A stretch of DNA of 64,000 nt from Pseudanabaena mucicola FACHB-723 (GTDB taxonomy: Bacteria > Cyanobacteriota > Cyanobacteriia > Pseudanabaenales > Pseudanabaenaceae), in contig NZ_JACJQB010000002.1 of assembly GCF_014696385.1 (NCBI RefSeq), forward strand, positions 1 through 64,000. Reading direction: 5' to 3'. Made by a program: the position numbers and the translations under genes. The notes below the pieces were generated by a model, which was not told the origin of the DNA, did no database searches, and saw nothing but the letters and a program-made list of their open reading frames with translations. Numbering within the stretch: the stretch's first letter is position 1; each line of letters opens with the position of its first letter. Shown piece after piece: positions 50,047-57,869 of the stretch.

Positions 50047-50081
50047 AAAAGGGAGAGCGCTAAGCGCTCTCCCTTTTTTAT
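50043..50081. terminator. Perfect bidirectional terminator nusB / gvpJ
   Basis: Arms 50043-50060 and 50064-50081 are exact complements (loop TAA), A6 left and T6 right. Both stop codons (nusB 50044-50046, gvpJ 50078-50080) lie in the arms. Confidence 0.9.
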
Positions 50082-50404
50082 GATTCTAGTTGCTTGGTTG
50101 CGGCGAGTTCTCTTTCCAACAGATTGACTCTCTCTAGTAACTGTTGATTAGAAGCAAGTAACTCTTGAGTTCTTGATGACAAATAGGGGTCAGACTCCCA
50201 CCAGTTAATCCCGATTTCTTTAGCTTTATCGACAGAGGCAACTAGCAAGCGAATCCGAATACTCAGTAATTCCACACTGCCCACCGACACTGTGATATCA
50301 CCAGCAATGACAATTCCCTTGTCCAATACTCTTTCGAGAATATCGGCAAGGGAAGAGCCAGTGGTACTGGTTTTGATTGCTTGAGGTCTAAGCGCTTGAG
50401 ACAT
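50078..50404 (-). CDS. gvpJ: Gas vesicle protein GvpJ
   Basis: 108-residue GvpA-related minor structural protein of the gas vesicle. The shared core is SLADILERVLDKGIVIAGDITVSVGSVELLSIRIRLLVASVDKAKEIGINWW. It differs from GvpA by the longer polar C-terminal tail with a predicted coiled coil (NQQLLERVNLLERELAATKQ). Start abuts the gvpN stop with no gap. Last gene of the gvpA-C-N-J unit. GvpJ is required for nucleation or tips in other species. Confidence 0.92.
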   Translation of the reverse strand: MSQALRPQAIKTSTTGSSLADILERVLDKGIVIAGDITVSVGSVELLSIRIRLLVASVDKAKEIGINWWESDPYLSSRTQELLASNQQLLERVNLLERELAATKQLES

Positions 50405-51286
50405 TTAAGTTATTTGATCCAATAGTTTAGCGAGACCGAGTTCTGACTCAGGCTTACCATCACCATAGCGAGAAATCAACACATCGAAGCAAAGATCCCG
50501 AAAATCCTCATCTTTACCAGAGACCGTAATCTCATGTTCATGGCAAATCTTACCAATCAACAGACAGGCACGTAAGCTCGAAGCTTTGCTACATTCCACC
50601 TGACGACGAAATCCTCTAATTAAATTAATTAATTTCAGGGCTTGATTACGATCGAGTCCCACCCGATTGACCAAGATTTGCTTCTCAGTTTCGACATCAG
50701 CTTCACCGATATTGATTGTGATCATTCGGTCAAGTAATGCATCTTGAGTAGGATGCACACCCGCATATTCCTCAGGATTAGAGGTAAAGATCGCCCTAAA
50801 CATGGGATGGACGCGCACATATTCTGTTTGCGAACTATCGGGAGGCAATACAATCAGTTTTTCTTCTAGCGCACTGAGGAGGACGTTATTTACTTCTGGT
50901 CGTGAGCGATTGAACTCATCGTAAATCAGTGTGAACCCTTCCTTAGCTGCTAAGGTGAGGCGCGAATCAGTCCAGCTTTGACGCAGATCATCTTCGACCT
51001 TGAGAACTGAGTGGATGTAGTTATCAACTACTTTCTTGCGGGTATAGCCTGAATTAGAGCCGACTAGTTGCGACGAGCGTAAGTCCTCATCTCCATAGAT
51101 TAAGACCATTGGTCTACCCACTAGCCCTGCAAGATGCATTGCTAACGTAGTTTTGCCAGTACCCGCAGGCCCACGCAAATGAATGGCAAAGCCTGATTGA
51201 AGATAGCGTAGGGCGCGACGGACTATTTGCTTGGTGAAGTCAGTGCTAATAAACTGACGCGCATTGGCATGGAGAACAGTGGTCAT
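50405..51286 (-). CDS. gvpN: Gas vesicle ATPase GvpN
   Basis: 293-residue AAA+ ATPase of the MoxR/NorQ type needed for vesicle enlargement. Walker A is LRGPAGTGKTTLAMHLAG, Walker B is LIYDEFNRSRPEVNNVLLSALEE, sensor 1 is RAIFTSNPEEYAGVHPTQDALLDRM. Its start overlaps the stop of gvpC by 4 bases (ATGA), indicating coupled translation, and its stop is immediately followed by the gvpJ start. Confidence 0.95.
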   Translation of the reverse strand: MTTVLHANARQFISTDFTKQIVRRALRYLQSGFAIHLRGPAGTGKTTLAMHLAGLVGRPMVLIYGDEDLRSSQLVGSNSGYTRKKVVDNYIHSVLKVEDDLRQSWTDSRLTLAAKEGFTLIYDEFNRSRPEVNNVLLSALEEKLIVLPPDSSQTEYVRVHPMFRAIFTSNPEEYAGVHPTQDALLDRMITINIGEADVETEKQILVNRVGLDRNQALKLINLIRGFRRQVECSKASSLRACLLIGKICHEHEITVSGKDEDFRDLCFDVLISRYGDGKPESELGLAKLLDQIT

Positions 51287-52425
51287 GTTGATGAGCCTTC
51301 TGCCATTTGTAGCAGAGTGTTAAGAATATCAGAGGGATCAACTTTGAGCGTATTGGCTCCCTGTGCTAGCAGGTCTCTGACGGTATCCCGATCATTGACG
51401 ACTTCTAACAGACTAGAGTTTGTTGATAATTGAGCAACATAGTCAACCACAAACTGCTCGATTTTGCCAGAGGTTTTAGGTGCTTCTTTGACAACTTCAA
51501 TGGGCTTGACGATTTCAGGCTCAGGGACTACAGCAACAGTCTCAGATTTATTGTTTTTCTTTTTTGACTTGGCGGAGCTAGCAGCACTGGTCGTTACTTC
51601 TGCCATGGGTTTGCTGATTACCTTCGGCTCTCTGGGCTGAGGTATAGGACTAACGGCAGTTGTGCGGTCGCCCCCCCATACTGATTCCTGTAATTGGGTG
51701 CGGAAGTTTTGTAATTTTTGAGCTTGAGATGCTGCTAGAGCAAGGCGATTGGCTTCTAGTTGCTCTAACGATGATTTGACATCAGCGGCGCGATCGCAAA
51801 ATTCCTGCGCTCTAGAACTAGCATCTTGCTCCGCTTGGGTGAGGCGTTGTTCATTAATTGCTTGAATTTGTTCAGCAACCTCGGCAGCTCTGGATTGTGC
51901 TTCCTGCGATCTTTGGGCGGCGGCAGCAGCAGCATTGGCAAGGCGAGTTTTGTTGAGTTCTTCAATCTGCATTAGGGTTAGGGCGGCGCGATCATGCACC
52001 AGTTGTTGACGTTGGGCAAGGTCGGCTTTACCTGCACGAATGCGGGCTTTGTGAATGTGTTTTAGCTGCGATCGCATTTTAAAGGTGCGACTTCTTACCT
52101 CTTGAGCGCGTTGCTCACTATCAGCAGCAGCTTGCTCAGTACGATTAGTATTTAAATCCCCCAAATATTCTGCGACTTGTTCTGCGCGTTGTTGCATCTC
52201 GACTCGACGTGATTCGAGTGCGTTTTCGGCAATCGCCTGTCTGCCCTGTTCCCAAGCAAGACGAGTTTGCTCTGCATGAGCTAAATATTTAGCAGTTGCT
52301 TCTGCTTGAGCCTGTAGATCTCTTTCCCTCTGTTCCCGTGCTAGCTGCTGTTCAGACAGAAAATCTGCTCTATCCTGTAGTCGTCTCTGCCTTGCTTCTG
52401 CAAATCCTTGCATCAAAGAAGCCAT
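51283..52425 (-). CDS. gvpC: Gas vesicle outer-surface protein GvpC, long form
   Basis: 380-residue protein that binds the outside of the vesicle and strengthens it. After an N-terminal segment with Met-Ala-Ser-Leu-Met-Gln-Gly-Phe, five well-aligned 33-residue repeats run at about 71-103, 104-136, 137-169, 170-202 and 203-235, plus a weaker one before, of the pattern (A/S)xRxxExxxRAAEVxxxIxxLNxxRLxxAxxxA. Unlike short GvpC (about 190 residues), it continues with a Pro/Lys-rich linker (about 265-315) and a predicted helical end domain (KIEQFVVDYVAQL to the C-terminus). The role of this tail is unknown. Confidence 0.92.
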   Translation of the reverse strand: MASLMQGFAEARQRRLQDRADFLSEQQLAREQRERDLQAQAEATAKYLAHAEQTRLAWEQGRQAIAENALESRRVEMQQRAEQVAEYLGDLNTNRTEQAAADSEQRAQEVRSRTFKMRSQLKHIHKARIRAGKADLAQRQQLVHDRAALTLMQIEELNKTRLANAAAAAAQRSQEAQSRAAEVAEQIQAINEQRLTQAEQDASSRAQEFCDRAADVKSSLEQLEANRLALAASQAQKLQNFRTQLQESVWGGDRTTAVSPIPQPREPKVISKPMAEVTTSAASSAKSKKKNNKSETVAVVPEPEIVKPIEVVKEAPKTSGKIEQFVVDYVAQLSTNSSLLEVVNDRDTVRDLLAQGANTLKVDPSDILNTLLQMAEGSST

Positions 52426-52684
52426 AACATTAACCTCTAATTCACTACTCTAAAAATCAAAACAAATCACAACAAATCAAAATAAACCAAATTTCCCAAG
52501 CGCCGCAAGTTTCATAAAATGATCCCCCTTCCCACCGTGTAACTACCCTGCCAAAAATACACTGCTTTGTCAGCAATAATCTAACAAGAGAGTTTTTGGT
52601 GAGAAAGGGGTAGAAAAGAAAATCGGTAGGCTAATAATCTATTGTTTAGCGACTTACTGCTAGCGATGCTAGTAGTAAATGTGA
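52426..52684 (-). other. 259-bp gvpA-gvpC gap with attenuator-like hairpin
   Basis: No ORF. Contains TTACTGCTAGC / GCTAGTAGTAA (52654-52677), 8 bases beyond the gvpA stop. Such a hairpin could release most transcripts after gvpA, giving an excess of the main shell protein. Confidence 0.55.
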
Positions 52685-52903
52685 CTAAGCCGCAGGTACT
52701 GCCGCCGATGCTGTGAGACCAACTGCTTCAGCATACTTGAGGTATGTTTCCACAGATGCGATAACGACACGAGCTTCAATTGACAATAGTTCGATTCCCA
52801 CTAGAGAGACTCTTACCCATGCATCAATAACAATGCCCTTATCTAAGATCCGATCGATGACTTCCGCTAGACTAGAGGAAGAGTTGACTTTTTCGACTGC
52901 CAT
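52685..52903 (-). CDS. gvpA: Major gas vesicle shell protein GvpA
   Basis: 72-residue protein that builds the vesicle ribs. Almost the full canonical sequence is visible: [64 protein letters not shown], ending in an Ala-rich tail. Only one gvpA copy is present in this window. It is the first gene of the unit, with a promoter expected in the 389-base region upstream. Confidence 0.97.
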
Positions 52904-54438: not shown

Positions 54439-54873
54439 ATGGAATGCCCCCACTGCCAAAGCCAAAAGATAATTAAAAATGGGAAACATCATCACTAAGA
54501 TGGCAAAGCGCTCCAGAATTATTTCTGCAAAGGATACAGCAAGAGATTTAGCGAAGGAACGCCAATATCAAGGCTGAGAACACTCGCAGAGGAGGTTTCT
54601 TTTGCACTGAAGATGAGAAGTGAAGGAATGGGAATCAGAGGTAGTGGAAGAGTGCTAGAAAAGTCCCATGTCAGAATCATGAGATGGGAGCAAAAATTGG
54701 CAAACCATTCACAAAACTTACACGAACAGCGATCGCCCCTACTATCTCAATCTGAATCAAAAAACGATCGCCTCAAACATCGACACTTTCATTACACAAA
54801 CGATCTCATCAAAATTCTAACTACTTTGAGAAATATTCAAATCAATCATCAAATTGCGTACAATTATGACTAA
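54439..54873 (+). pseudogene. IS1-type transposase (InsA-like) remnant
   Basis: From ATG 54439 the frame reads MECPHCQSQKIIKNGKHHH, then TAA (stop, 54496-54498), then DGKALQNYFCKGYSKRFSEG and ..RSEGMGIRGSGRVLEKSHVRIMRWEQKLA. This is the InsA zinc-finger (C-x2-C ... C) and helix of IS1-type elements with one in-frame stop and the second C-x2-C damaged (FCKGYS). After about 54715 the frame leaves the IS1 pattern and runs into HIP1-containing intergenic DNA. No catalytic part remains. A dead fragment. Confidence 0.75.
54763..54806. repeat. Imperfect HIP1-centred repeat, unit 1
   Basis: AACGATCGCCTCAAACATCG..ACACAAACGATC. A related unit is at 55110-55156 and a shorter one (ATCGCCTCAAACATC) at 55185-55200. 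Alignment by eye about three quarters identical. Confidence 0.5.
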
Positions 54874-55109: not shown

Positions 55110-55200
55110 AAGCGATCGCCTAAAGTATCCACAACCTCGCCACACAAACGATCGCACTCAACAAACCAACAACATCAAAGCTGCAATCGCCTCAAACATC
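55110..55200. repeat. Imperfect HIP1-centred repeats, units 2 and 3
   Basis: AAGCGATCGCCTAAAGTATCC..CACACAAACGATCGC (55110-55156) and AATCGCCTCAAACATC (55185-55200), related to 54763-54806. Non-coding. Confidence 0.5.
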
Positions 55201-55204
55201 TATA

Positions 55205-55233
55205 AATAAGGTTCGCTGGCAGCGAACCTTATT
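55205..55233 (+). terminator. Hairpin separating Cys-rich gene and retron-like locus
   Basis: AATAAGGTTCGCT / AGCGAACCTTATT, perfect 13-bp stem with loop GGC. Likely a terminator; no T-run directly after. Confidence 0.65.
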
Positions 55234-55246
55234 AGCGAAATTATGT

Positions 55247-55252
55247 TATATT
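55247..55252 (+). promoter_or_regulatory. Possible -10 of the retron-like RNA
   Basis: TATATT at 55247-55252, with no convincing -35. Transcription from about 55259 would place the a1-like segment near the 5' end of the RNA. Confidence 0.3.
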
Positions 55253-55264
55253 AAAAAAGTCGGA

Positions 55265-55529
55265 TTAAAAGAGATATGCCACTTACTAGATTGCTTCGGT
55301 AATCTGAGGAAAATGCAAGCTCATTTTCTGCTGTGTTCCTTGATTAACGCAAAAATAGTGTTACTTTATGTACCTACAATGTGTTACTACAACGCACACT
55401 AGCGCATCCTAGGCACTGGATGCGCTCTGTATAGGAAGGGTTAAAACGGGTGTTCTCTAGGTTTATTTAAGGCACGCTCATTTCTCGCAAGAGATTGAGT
55501 GTAAATAAACAATACAGGAGACATCTCTT
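55265..55529 (+). ncRNA. Candidate retron msr-msd RNA
   Basis: About 265 bases without ORF, upstream of the RT operon, that fold into successive hairpins. They are a 7-bp stem with a UUCG tetraloop (55288-55305), a 7-bp GAAAATG/CATTTTC stem (55309-55328), a 9-bp AGCGCATCC/GGATGCGCT stem (55401-55426), and a long 3' hairpin at 55461-55510. The long hairpin has a GTTTATTT/AAATAAAC base, an ACGCTCA/TGAGTGT middle and a TCTC-GCAA-GAGA tip. Ends can pair: AAGAGAT (55269-55275) with ATCTCTT (55523-55529), as retron a1/a2 regions do. Short 5' hairpins fit an msr and the long one an msd. The branching G and cDNA are not determined. Confidence 0.6.
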
Positions 55530-55742
55530 ATGAAAAAGTCTAAAAAGACAATTTCTCAATCCGATAAACATCTGAATAAGTCCAAAAAACCAAAATCAAG
55601 ACAATCTAGCAAGCGTCAGTGGCTGGAGAAGCTACGCAAACCAGAGACACTGCGTTCACTAATTAAACTTGGTAGTCAAATCTATAGTGCTTACAAACTA
55701 TTGAAATGTCTAGTAGAAAAATTCCTTGAATTCTTCTCTTAA
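55530..55742 (+). CDS. Small strongly basic protein of the retron-like locus
   Basis: 70-residue protein, 20 Lys/Arg against 5 Asp/Glu. Residues 1-40 are polar and basic (KKSKKTISQSDKHLNKSKK), residues 41-70 form a likely amphipathic helix LRSLIKLGSQIYSAYKLLKC ending LEFFS. A good Shine-Dalgarno (AGGAG at 55516-55520) supports translation. The ATG directly follows the a2-like segment. I do not recognise a family. Candidate effector or nucleic-acid-binding partner of the retron; membrane-active toxin is also possible. Confidence 0.6.
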   Translation: MKKSKKTISQSDKHLNKSKKPKSRQSSKRQWLEKLRKPETLRSLIKLGSQIYSAYKLLKCLVEKFLEFFS

Positions 55743-55805
55743 GTTTTGTAAGCTTATTACCCTTCTATACAACTTCTATAAACCTCTAATCCAAGGAAGC
55801 TAGAT

Positions 55806-56117
55806 ATGTTAAATAAAGCTCTAAGGTTGATGAGAGTATTTCATGATTTATCACAAAAAGATCTTGCAGAAAAGCTAGGTATATCTAAATCCTATTTGTC
55901 AGAGATTGAATCTGGTAAAAAACAGCCGACGCTTGATTTGCTGAATCGATATTCAAATATTTTTGATATTCCTTTGTCATCAATTCTATTTTTCTCGGAA
56001 AATATAGAATCTGATGTTAAGACTGATAAGTTGAAGACTTTTATATCATCTAAAGTCATTGCTATTCTTAACTTTATCGCTGAAAGATCAGCTTATGATG
56101 CCACAGTTAAAGAATAA
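55806..56117 (+). CDS. XRE-family HTH regulator in the retron-like operon
   Basis: 103-residue protein. A Cro/C1-type helix-turn-helix covers about residues 5-60 (RVFHDLSQKDLAEKLGISKS, YLSEIESGKKQPTLDLL, RYSNIFDIPLSSILFF). The remaining 40 residues are helical, with no known domain. The gene overlaps the RT start by about 20 bases, so translation is coupled. Retrons with HTH accessory proteins are known; here the HTH protein may be repressor, antitoxin or DNA-binding partner of the RT. Confidence 0.9.
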   Translation: MLNKALRLMRVFHDLSQKDLAEKLGISKSYLSEIESGKKQPTLDLLNRYSNIFDIPLSSILFFSENIESDVKTDKLKTFISSKVIAILNFIAERSAYDATVKE

Positions 56118-56994
56118 GTATTCTAGATACGATCTCAATCAGTCTCCATTTTTTCGTTTAACATCTCAAACTAAACTTGCTAAAGTCTTATGGATTAGTA
56201 AGCGTAAGCTTGAGATTCTTATAGATTCAGAGAATTTATACATAGAAGACGTATTCATAAAATCTGGTAAAAGTAGGTTGTTGGCAAAGCCAAGATATGA
56301 CTTAAAAAAAGTTCAAAAACAAATTGAGGATATTCTCAAAAGAATAAAATGTCCTGATTACTTACATAGCCCTAAAAAAGATTGTTCCTATATTAGCAAT
56401 GCAAAGGTTCACACGAATGCGAATGTAGTCGTAACTCTTGATATACAAAATTATTTTTCTTCTACTCCATCAAGACGAGTGTACTGGTTTTTTCATAAGA
56501 AAATGCAATGCTCTCCAGATGTAGCTAGTATTTTAGCGAAATTATTGACTTTTAAAGATCATTTACCCACAGGTAGTCCTTCAAGTCCTTTAATTGCATA
56601 TTTTGCATATATCGATATGTGGAATGAAATTAATGAACTCGTTGAAAATGCAAATTGCAAGTTAAGTCTTTACATAGATGATGTAACTATCTCAGGACAG
56701 AATGTTTCAGAAAAACTAATTTGGGAAGTCAAAAAGAAGATTTATAGTAACGATTTATCTGTCAATAAATCTAAGGAGAAGCGTTACTCTGGCAAACAAC
56801 CTCGTCAAATAACTGGAGTTATACTAACGCCACAAGGTGAGATGAAGCTCCCTAATCGACAACATTTAAAAATGTATAAAGTTCGTAAATTAATCAAAAA
56901 AACTGACGATCCAGAAGCTAAAGATAATTTAACTCAAAAACTGAAGGGTTTGGAATCACAAGCTAAACAAATCATGTCATCATCAAAGACATAA
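56095..56994 (+). CDS. Retron-type reverse transcriptase
   Basis: 299 residues from ATG 56095 (ATG 56098 also possible). Retron signatures in order: NAKVH (102-106) fitting the NAxxH motif, catalytic Asp in TLDIQNYFSS (115-123), LPTGSPSSP (157-165) in place of LPQGAPTSP, active site YIDD (193-196), and RQITGVILTPQG (238-248) for the VTG motif that binds the RNA. No fused domain. It would use the upstream RNA as primer and template to make msDNA. Lower GC than the neighbouring housekeeping genes suggests transfer. Confidence 0.92.
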   Translation: MMPQLKNKYSRYDLNQSPFFRLTSQTKLAKVLWISKRKLEILIDSENLYIEDVFIKSGKSRLLAKPRYDLKKVQKQIEDILKRIKCPDYLHSPKKDCSYISNAKVHTNANVVVTLDIQNYFSSTPSRRVYWFFHKKMQCSPDVASILAKLLTFKDHLPTGSPSSPLIAYFAYIDMWNEINELVENANCKLSLYIDDVTISGQNVSEKLIWEVKKKIYSNDLSVNKSKEKRYSGKQPRQITGVILTPQGEMKLPNRQHLKMYKVRKLIKKTDDPEAKDNLTQKLKGLESQAKQIMSSSKT

Positions 56995-57126
56995 CAGATG
57001 AGATTGCTTTTAAATTCTCTTTGGTTGACTAGCAAATGGGACACTCAACTTAACCAAAGACTTTTGCAACATACTTGGCTTAACACTTAAGCAAACTTGA
57101 TTGCGATCTTTTACTGGGATGATTAT

Positions 57127-57429
57127 CTAATGTAACGCTGCAATCGGGACTATTTGACACAATATATCGCCTAAATTCCTTTTTGCTTCCATCAACTCAT
57201 AGGCATAATGCAACCTCAAAAAATAACCATCCGACAACCCAAAATAGCGACATAAACGTAAATCAACATCCGCAGTCATCGGAGCCTTACCTTGAATAAT
57301 TTGCTGAATACTCAAATAAGGTAAACGTAAACTCTCAGCCAAACTATTTGTACTAATATTTAATTCTTCTAAAAACTCATATTGCAAGATTTCGCCAACA
57401 TGAGGATTACGCAGTAAAATATTTTCCAT
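57127..57429 (-). CDS. higA: HigA-type antitoxin
   Basis: 100-residue HTH protein of the HigA/VapI family: NPHVGEILQYEFLEELNIST, then SLAESLRLPYLSIQQIIQGK and TADVDLRLCRYFGLSDGYFLRLHYAYEL. It binds and neutralises the toxin encoded just upstream and represses the operon. The stop is 132 bases from the end of the RT gene, on the opposite strand. Confidence 0.92.
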   Translation of the reverse strand: MENILLRNPHVGEILQYEFLEELNISTNSLAESLRLPYLSIQQIIQGKAPMTADVDLRLCRYFGLSDGYFLRLHYAYELMEAKRNLGDILCQIVPIAALH

Positions 57430-57440
57430 TGCCTTTCCTC

Positions 57441-57722
57441 CTAATGATAATCAACAATCTCAACATCATAAGCATTTCCATTTTGCCAAACAAAACAGAG
57501 TCGCCATTGCTTAGTGATGCGAATACTGTATTGTCTGAAGCGATCACCAACCAGTGCTTCTAAATGATTGGCAGGTGGTACACGCAGATCTTCCAGATTA
57601 GCAGATACATCAAGTTGACGTAGTTTGCGTAAAGCTCTTTCCTGTATATCTGATGGTAGCTTACGCGATCGCAAGCCTTGCCAAATCTTTTCGGTTTCTT
57701 TACAAGCAAATGAAACAATCAT
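57441..57722 (-). CDS. higB: HigB-type toxin (RelE superfamily)
   Basis: 93 residues from ATG 57722 (MIVSFACKETEKIWQG), the usual family start; the longer frame from 57764 adds an unlikely Val/Tyr-rich piece. Motifs: LPSDIQERALRKLRQLDVSANLEDLRVPPANHLEALVGDRFRQYSIRITKQWRLCFVW (in parts), ending in DVEIVDYH. It cleaves ribosome-bound mRNA. First gene of the higBA pair, toxin first as is typical. Confidence 0.92.
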   Translation of the reverse strand: MIVSFACKETEKIWQGLRSRKLPSDIQERALRKLRQLDVSANLEDLRVPPANHLEALVGDRFRQYSIRITKQWRLCFVWQNGNAYDVEIVDYH

Positions 57723-57869
57723 TAAAGCCCAACCATCTGAAATATAACAAACCACACTCACCATGCAACAGGTTTAAAATTATCATTTGCGAGCGCCCCA
57801 AAACTTAAACTTGATTAGCAACTACCTCTCTCAAATTGACCAAATACTTTCGTAATAAGTATTGCCAAA

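Follow-up and report, generated by a model that had tools for sequence, protein, structure and literature searches.

A type VI retron of Pseudanabaena mucicola and a covarying RNA fold predicted to reach into its small open reading frame

The window, that is, the whole stretch of DNA analysed here, comprises 64,000 nucleotides of Pseudanabaena mucicola FACHB-723, and all coordinates given without a locus name refer to it. A structured RNA is followed, on the same strand, by an open reading frame (ORF) of 70 aa, then by an XRE-type HTH gene and then by a reverse transcriptase (RT) gene:

55530..55742, forward strand: small ORF, 70 aa, with a basic N-terminus and an amphipathic C-terminal helix; candidate effector peptide
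55806..56117, forward strand: XRE-family HTH protein, 103 aa (PADLOC HTH_VI, 3.3e-38; Pfam HTH_3, 4.8e-15)
56095..56994, forward strand: retron RT (PADLOC RT_VI, 1.5e-93; RVT_1, 1.8e-14)

The longest frame of the RT runs from TTG 56059, with ATG codons at 56095 and 56098, and overlaps the end of the HTH gene. The second-best PADLOC model for the RT was RT_III-A (1.2e-46 versus 1.5e-93 for RT_VI), and the solved chains nearest to it are retron RTs, the RT of Ec86 ranking first (7v9u, 2.3e-16). It carries the motifs NAKVH (NAxxH), YIDD (YxDD) and ITG (for VTG), in which N, A, H, Y, DD and TG are invariant across 13 aligned RTs; the motif definitions are those of PMC6868368, where ITG is a V-to-I variant of VTG known also in Vc81. 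Because of the RT_VI and HTH_VI matches, the retron RT motifs and the nearest solved relatives, the assignment of the locus to retron type VI is secure at the gene level. Retrons in general are RT elements with kinship to the anti-phage systems of bacteria; they make msDNA with a 2'-5' branch and act against phages through a toxic effector. It shares with this type the family models of RT and XRE-type HTH protein and the upstream small ORF, and is a plain member of it: the RT clade, the adjoining HTH DNA-binding protein and the gene for a small auxiliary protein were all found, an upstream position of the small auxiliary ORF being part of the type description that PMC8541194 gives at second hand.

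To compare the locus with its relatives, type VI loci were gathered from plasmids, phages, viral contigs and genomes, and 30 were kept whose ncRNA-ORF regions were <80% identical; this set spans Cyanobacteria, Proteobacteria, Firmicutes and phages. The small ORF lies directly before the HTH gene in all 30 (47-70 aa, often unannotated), and one RNA plan is common to nearly all of them. Searches of the viral contigs with the window RT or the Scytonema RT singly gave no matches, and an alignment query was needed. Only 3 of 388 additional cyanobacterial genomes matched at 1e-30, so the type VI family is rare in cyanobacteria, and among the RT matches from the cyanobacterial phylum (L005-L031) a recognisable type VI HTH stood beside the RT in four (L006, L007, L009 and L010). 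Type VI retrons also occur on P2-like and Mu-like phages (L039, L040, L041, L042 and L050), in some cases between structural genes.

Upstream of the small ORF, an earlier note made from the window alone had placed four hairpins within 55265-55529 and had read them as a retron ncRNA. The retron itself is borne out by the RT and HTH families, the RT motifs and the conserved structured RNA upstream, and the four hairpins are present at essentially the positions given for them:

55287..55306, forward strand: SL1, with a TTCG loop, from the fold and comparison with relatives
55308..55329, forward strand: SL2, from the fold and comparison with relatives
55401..55426, forward strand: SL3, with motif M' (GGCA, 55412-55415) in its loop; its stem reached z 10.6 in a bin scan
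55461..55510, forward strand: SL4, a compound hairpin with a GCAA tip; motif M'' (GGCA, 55471-55474) lies on the 5' side of its internal loop
55516..55520, forward strand: AGGAG, the Shine-Dalgarno of the small ORF, by sequence

The stretch 55265-55529 folds at -76.9 kcal/mol compared with -59.8 kcal/mol in 200 dinucleotide shuffles (z -3.98), and SL1-SL4 are found again in three cyanobacterial relatives (L003, L004 and L032), with compensatory changes. When the hairpins and the long-range pairings described below were scored together in the alignment of these four loci, 92.1% of cells were paired, against 36-46% after partners had been slid by 1-3 columns, and 16 cells showed two-sided changes versus 7.9 in shuffled alignments (0/500). 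The GCAA tip of SL4, which the earlier note had also described, is present in the window but is not general, as the inner-loop sequences vary between loci.

The hairpins had been thought to be enclosed by a 7-bp a1/a2 pairing of AAGAGAT (55269-55275) with ATCTCTT (55523-55529), and a covariance check on related loci had been suggested. Both strings are present as written; the check that confirmed the hairpins gave no signal for this helix: the relatives had it 50% paired, inside the 33-55% span of the slid controls, and none of its pairs had changed on both sides. We further used a partner-swap test, in which the complementarity of two segments within a locus is set against that of segments swapped between loci, so that composition and local motifs are kept. 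Over 30 loci the helix scored 11.28 in native and 11.10 in permuted combinations (z 0.5), and its z was -0.1 in the anchor-free version of the test described below. A conventional msr-msd that stops just before the small ORF and is closed by these 7 bp, of which 5 are retained in L003, is hardly credible to us, since the helix occurs in the window but is lost in L004 and L032 and gave these two z values, and since the 5' end of the RNA has stronger conserved partners, which are situated within the ORF. Rather than 55265-55529, the element covers ~55259-55574, or reaches to 55771 if Y' is counted; the element order seen earlier is broadly correct, whereas the conserved a1 lies at 55259-55266 and its partner at 55558-55565, inside the small ORF. 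The segments concerned are the following:

55259..55266, forward strand: a1, GTCGGATT, predicted 5' end of the transcript; partner 55558-55565
55428..55441, forward strand: Y, TGTATAGGAAGGGT, just 3' of SL3; partner 55759-55771
55447..55454, forward strand: X, CGGGTGTT, just after SL3 and Y; partner 55567-55574 in the ORF
55558..55565, forward strand: a2, AATCCGAT, inside the small ORF; partner a1
55567..55574, forward strand: X', AACATCTG, inside the small ORF, 1 nt after a2
55759..55771, forward strand: Y', ACCCTTCTATACA, after the stop codon of the small ORF; partner Y

The a1:a2 pairing covaries over the 30 loci (z 9.4, 0/20000). It surfaced when 25 windows were compared in all their 300 pairings, a scan that was not aimed at it, that also returned the known stems and that located the partner of a1 at ORF nucleotides ~8-35; it closes the unconstrained MFE structure of 55259-55580, and is weak or displaced in L048, L051, L068, L086 and L095. 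The a1/a2-type pairing of a structured ncRNA, a general feature of retrons, is present here at other coordinates than first noted. X:X' reached z 10.4 (0/20000) over the 30 loci, and in the four cyanobacterial loci all counted cells were paired, three pairs having changed on both sides; it was first seen as a consistent location in most loci in a blind search, in which a chance stretch outscored it in the window. Y:Y' reached z 7.0 (0/20000). Both Y:Y' and the M:M' pairing covary little in the four cyanobacteria alone because the sequences hardly vary there, and it is the wider set that supports them. Topologically, a1:a2 and X:X' cross (pseudoknot) and may therefore form at different times. 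As X' follows a2 so closely in the ORF, a near-continuous duplex of ~16 bp with both a1 and X could cover codons 10-15 of the window ORF. As read from these pairings, the retron RNA does not end before the small gene, but includes its Shine-Dalgarno, its start and its early codons, and Y' extends the predicted fold past the stop. There is support for the idea of the earlier note that translation of the small ORF might be under the control of folding, as conserved pairings enclose the Shine-Dalgarno, the start codon and the early codons, and the overlap of fold and ORF suggests a direct coupling of DNA synthesis and peptide production.

A further short motif takes part in this arrangement:

55277..55280, forward strand: motif M, TGCC, before SL1; complementary to M' and M''

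Over the 30 loci, M:M' and M:M'' reached z 5.4 and 5.5 (0/20000 each), and M' and M'' are copies of one another, with a longest common word of 6.2 versus 4.1 (z 10.6, 0/20000). The three motifs change together, e.g., CCTCGCC/GGCGAGG in L046, CCCCT/AGGGG in L043, ACCAG/CTGGT in L084 and GTCTT/AAGAC in L047. The distance from M' to M'' is 55-74 nt in 30/30 loci, and mostly 57-60, while that from SL1 to SL3 ranges over 73-188 nt. Such a duplication resembles a two-state device, and the leader might act in cis to control translation of the small ORF, the alternation of M between M' and M'' being the switch, while the RT uses a different RNA template or acts otherwise. This would fit the convergence of every conserved long-range pairing on the start, early codons and stop of the small ORF; we nevertheless think it rather unlikely, considering the retron-like layout (a1 begins the predicted transcript and pairs with a distant segment, short hairpins come next, and a retron RT lies downstream) and the single-copy state of the element, no extra copies of the structured RNA having been found in the genome. 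Alternatively, the direct repeat M'...M'' could delimit a template that is copied repeatedly into concatemeric cDNA, as in some defence RTs. The word shared by M' and M'' in nearly every locus and their spacing would be in keeping with this, but the RT falls in the retron clade, outside the DRT2/DRT10 groups, and we consider repeated copying quite improbable.

The anchor strings for SL1, SL3 and SL4 were hand-picked from predicted hairpins after the motif had been noticed by eye (for at least one locus, L046, with the motif in view), and the anchored tests would for this reason be weak if relied on alone. We therefore repeated the tests of X:X', Y:Y', a1:a2 and the direct repeat in windows set by the start and stop of the ORF only. 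These anchor-free tests gave z 10.3 for X:X', 6.7 for Y:Y', 6.9 for a1:a2 and 5.3 for the direct repeat (0/10000 each), and when each broad clade was represented by a single locus of our choice, the values were 8.8, 6.4, 5.6 and 4.3, respectively (0/10000 each). Three type VI-like loci of Melainabacteria from outside the 30-locus set (L006, L007 and L009), with hairpin strings that we chose after reading the sequence, showed M:M', M:M'' and Y:Y' in 3/3; X:X' was clear in L006 and, on inspection by eye, had a single mismatch in each of L007 and L009, and a1:a2 was plausible only in L007 and unconvincing in L006 and L009. The ORF is very short in these three loci (26-32 aa), which retain the M/M'/M'' and Y:Y' pairings.

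The region at and before a1 contains three further features:

55205..55233, forward strand: operator-like palindrome, AATAAGGTTCGCTGGCAGCGAACCTTATT, just 5' of the promoter; putative site of the HTH protein
55247..55252, forward strand: -10-like box, TATATT, from its position and the same arrangement in relatives
55271..55276, forward strand: GAGATA, a conserved purine-rich run 3' of a1 and 5' of M, where the priming guanosine may lie

TTCGCT-N3..5-AGCGAA was found at >=10/12 positions (i.e., at least 10) in 24/30 loci, with a mean of 10.5 versus 7.5 in shuffled sequences, and the HTH protein probably binds this palindrome and represses its own promoter (autoregulation). A scan for the sigma-70 consensus gave no full match at the expected promoter. 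The transcript is predicted to start at ~55258-55260, and because a1 begins ~7 nt after TATATT, it is the expected beginning of the RNA. In Retron-Eco1 the priming G immediately follows a1 (PMC11754653); the window has no G directly after a1, the first one being 4 nt away, where the conserved GAGATA-like run begins; by eye, this run follows a1 in most loci. By analogy, GAGATA is a candidate for the site of the priming guanosine.

The small ORF has a Shine-Dalgarno-like run before its ATG in 30/30 loci, by eye, and is under selection as a peptide: in the five close pairs of equal length for which dN/dS was computed it was <1 throughout, with 0.39 for the window versus L003, 0.21-0.51 in the four other pairs, and 0.18-0.60 when only the part after nucleotide 48 was considered. 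The small-ORF peptide had no PADLOC match and no significant Pfam match. Across the 30 loci the peptides are basic towards the N-terminus and amphipathic in their C-terminal helix, with a mean net charge of +8 and a mean maximal helical moment of ~0.6, and it is this composition alone that makes the peptide a candidate toxin-like effector. The same basicity would suit a helper, for instance a basic RNA- or RT-binding peptide, with the HTH protein or a gene elsewhere as the effector, a reading that is compatible with the overlap of RNA and ORF and to which the DNA-binding partner proteins of other retron types (type IX, PMC13405049) and the TIR genes downstream in some type VI loci lend some weight. 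It is less easily reconciled with the operator-like palindrome at the promoter of the HTH protein itself, which is what an autoregulator would have. Tight structural control of an ORF start is typical of toxins, and such control at the start of this ORF also speaks against a helper, so that we regard the helper as doubtful.

In three alphaproteobacterial loci, a gene with a TIR domain lies directly after the RT (L035:3462-4421, L048:3387-4352 and L049:3405-4370), and its protein is a possible second effector, or an effector in place of the peptide, in these loci.

The model that we regard as best, and favour with modest confidence, is a type VI retron in which the ncRNA and the mRNA of the small peptide are one molecule. 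Transcription would begin at a1 and the RNA would fold into SL1-SL4, with a1 and X pairing with a2 and X' in the small ORF, Y pairing just past the stop, and M pairing with M' or M''. Because this fold encloses the Shine-Dalgarno and the start codon, little of the peptide should be translated. In the manner of other retrons, the RT might prime at a G shortly after a1 using the a1/a2 duplex, so that the first template nucleotide would be ~55557, and copy back from inside the ORF over the start codon and the Shine-Dalgarno; host RNase H would then remove the copied template stretch, as happens to the msd template in known retrons (PMC6868368), and reverse transcription would thereby both yield msDNA and consume the peptide mRNA. 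If phage infection blocked the copying or melted the fold, the peptide, membrane-active by its looks, would be translated and would halt the cell, and the HTH protein would repress the promoter via the TTCGCT palindrome. The stronger claim, that in type VI the template is the toxin mRNA, with reverse transcription itself as the antitoxin and a phage-imposed block releasing the toxin, is a possibility that we put forward only tentatively.

Retron type VI is reportedly contained in the classification of Mestre et al. 2020. No experiments on any type VI retron were found in the literature searched, the defining 2020 paper lying outside it. An RNA fold overlapping the small ORF is undescribed in the literature found, and an Rfam search of the window returned a tRNA, at the gathering threshold, and no other family. 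What can be called new is confined to the overlap and to the pairings, which are absent from Rfam and the literature found; a type VI ncRNA may already have been published. The locus shares with Retron-Eco1 (Ec86) and other characterised retrons the RT sequence, the NAxxH and YxDD motifs and an a1/a2 duplex around short hairpins. In those retrons the ncRNA is separate from the effector coding sequence, whereas here a2 lies inside a conserved ORF and the X:X', Y:Y' and M:M'/M'' pairings are additional. In the mRNAs of type I toxin-antitoxin systems (hok, tisB), the start of a small hydrophobic or amphipathic peptide is under the control of RNA structure; the present locus is like them in the structure-controlled peptide start, but encodes an RT and a repressor-like protein instead. 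DRT2, as described in PMC12039810, has an RT beside a pseudoknotted non-coding RNA template and couples reverse transcription to a toxic product, both of which the proposed model would share; it differs in that its RT belongs to another group and its toxic gene is assembled by reverse transcription, while here the ORF pre-exists in the RNA.

Type VI has been a type without an obvious effector, and the pairing map supplies an RNA with predicted ends and a candidate effector peptide that occurs in every analysed locus, as well as defining exact compensatory mutations. If template and toxin message were one RNA, reverse transcription would be tied to cell suicide in a distinct manner, and the scarcity of other genes in many type VI loci, which hold little more than an RT and a repressor-like protein, would find an explanation. 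In that case, genome editing with type VI RTs would also have to use a natural RNA that includes part of the coding sequence.

As to the surroundings of the retron, 50078-52903 holds what we take, by their look, to be gas vesicle genes (GvpN-like 50405-51286, GvpC-like 51283-52425 and GvpA-like 52685-52903), and 54439-54710 is presumably what is left of an IS1-type transposase whose frames are broken. The RT is followed immediately, on the opposite strand, by 57127-57764, which encodes an antitoxin-like HTH protein and a HigB-like toxin (Pfam HigB-like, 9e-19). The host genome is near that of Pseudanabaena sp. lw0831, whose RT (93% identity) was the sole match, a near copy, in a search of genome contigs. 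In this relative, 55194-57469, i.e., the retron and most of the toxin-antitoxin pair, is 90% identical, and the upstream flank differs, with the break just 5' of the operator; the retron and the toxin-antitoxin pair may be mobile together.
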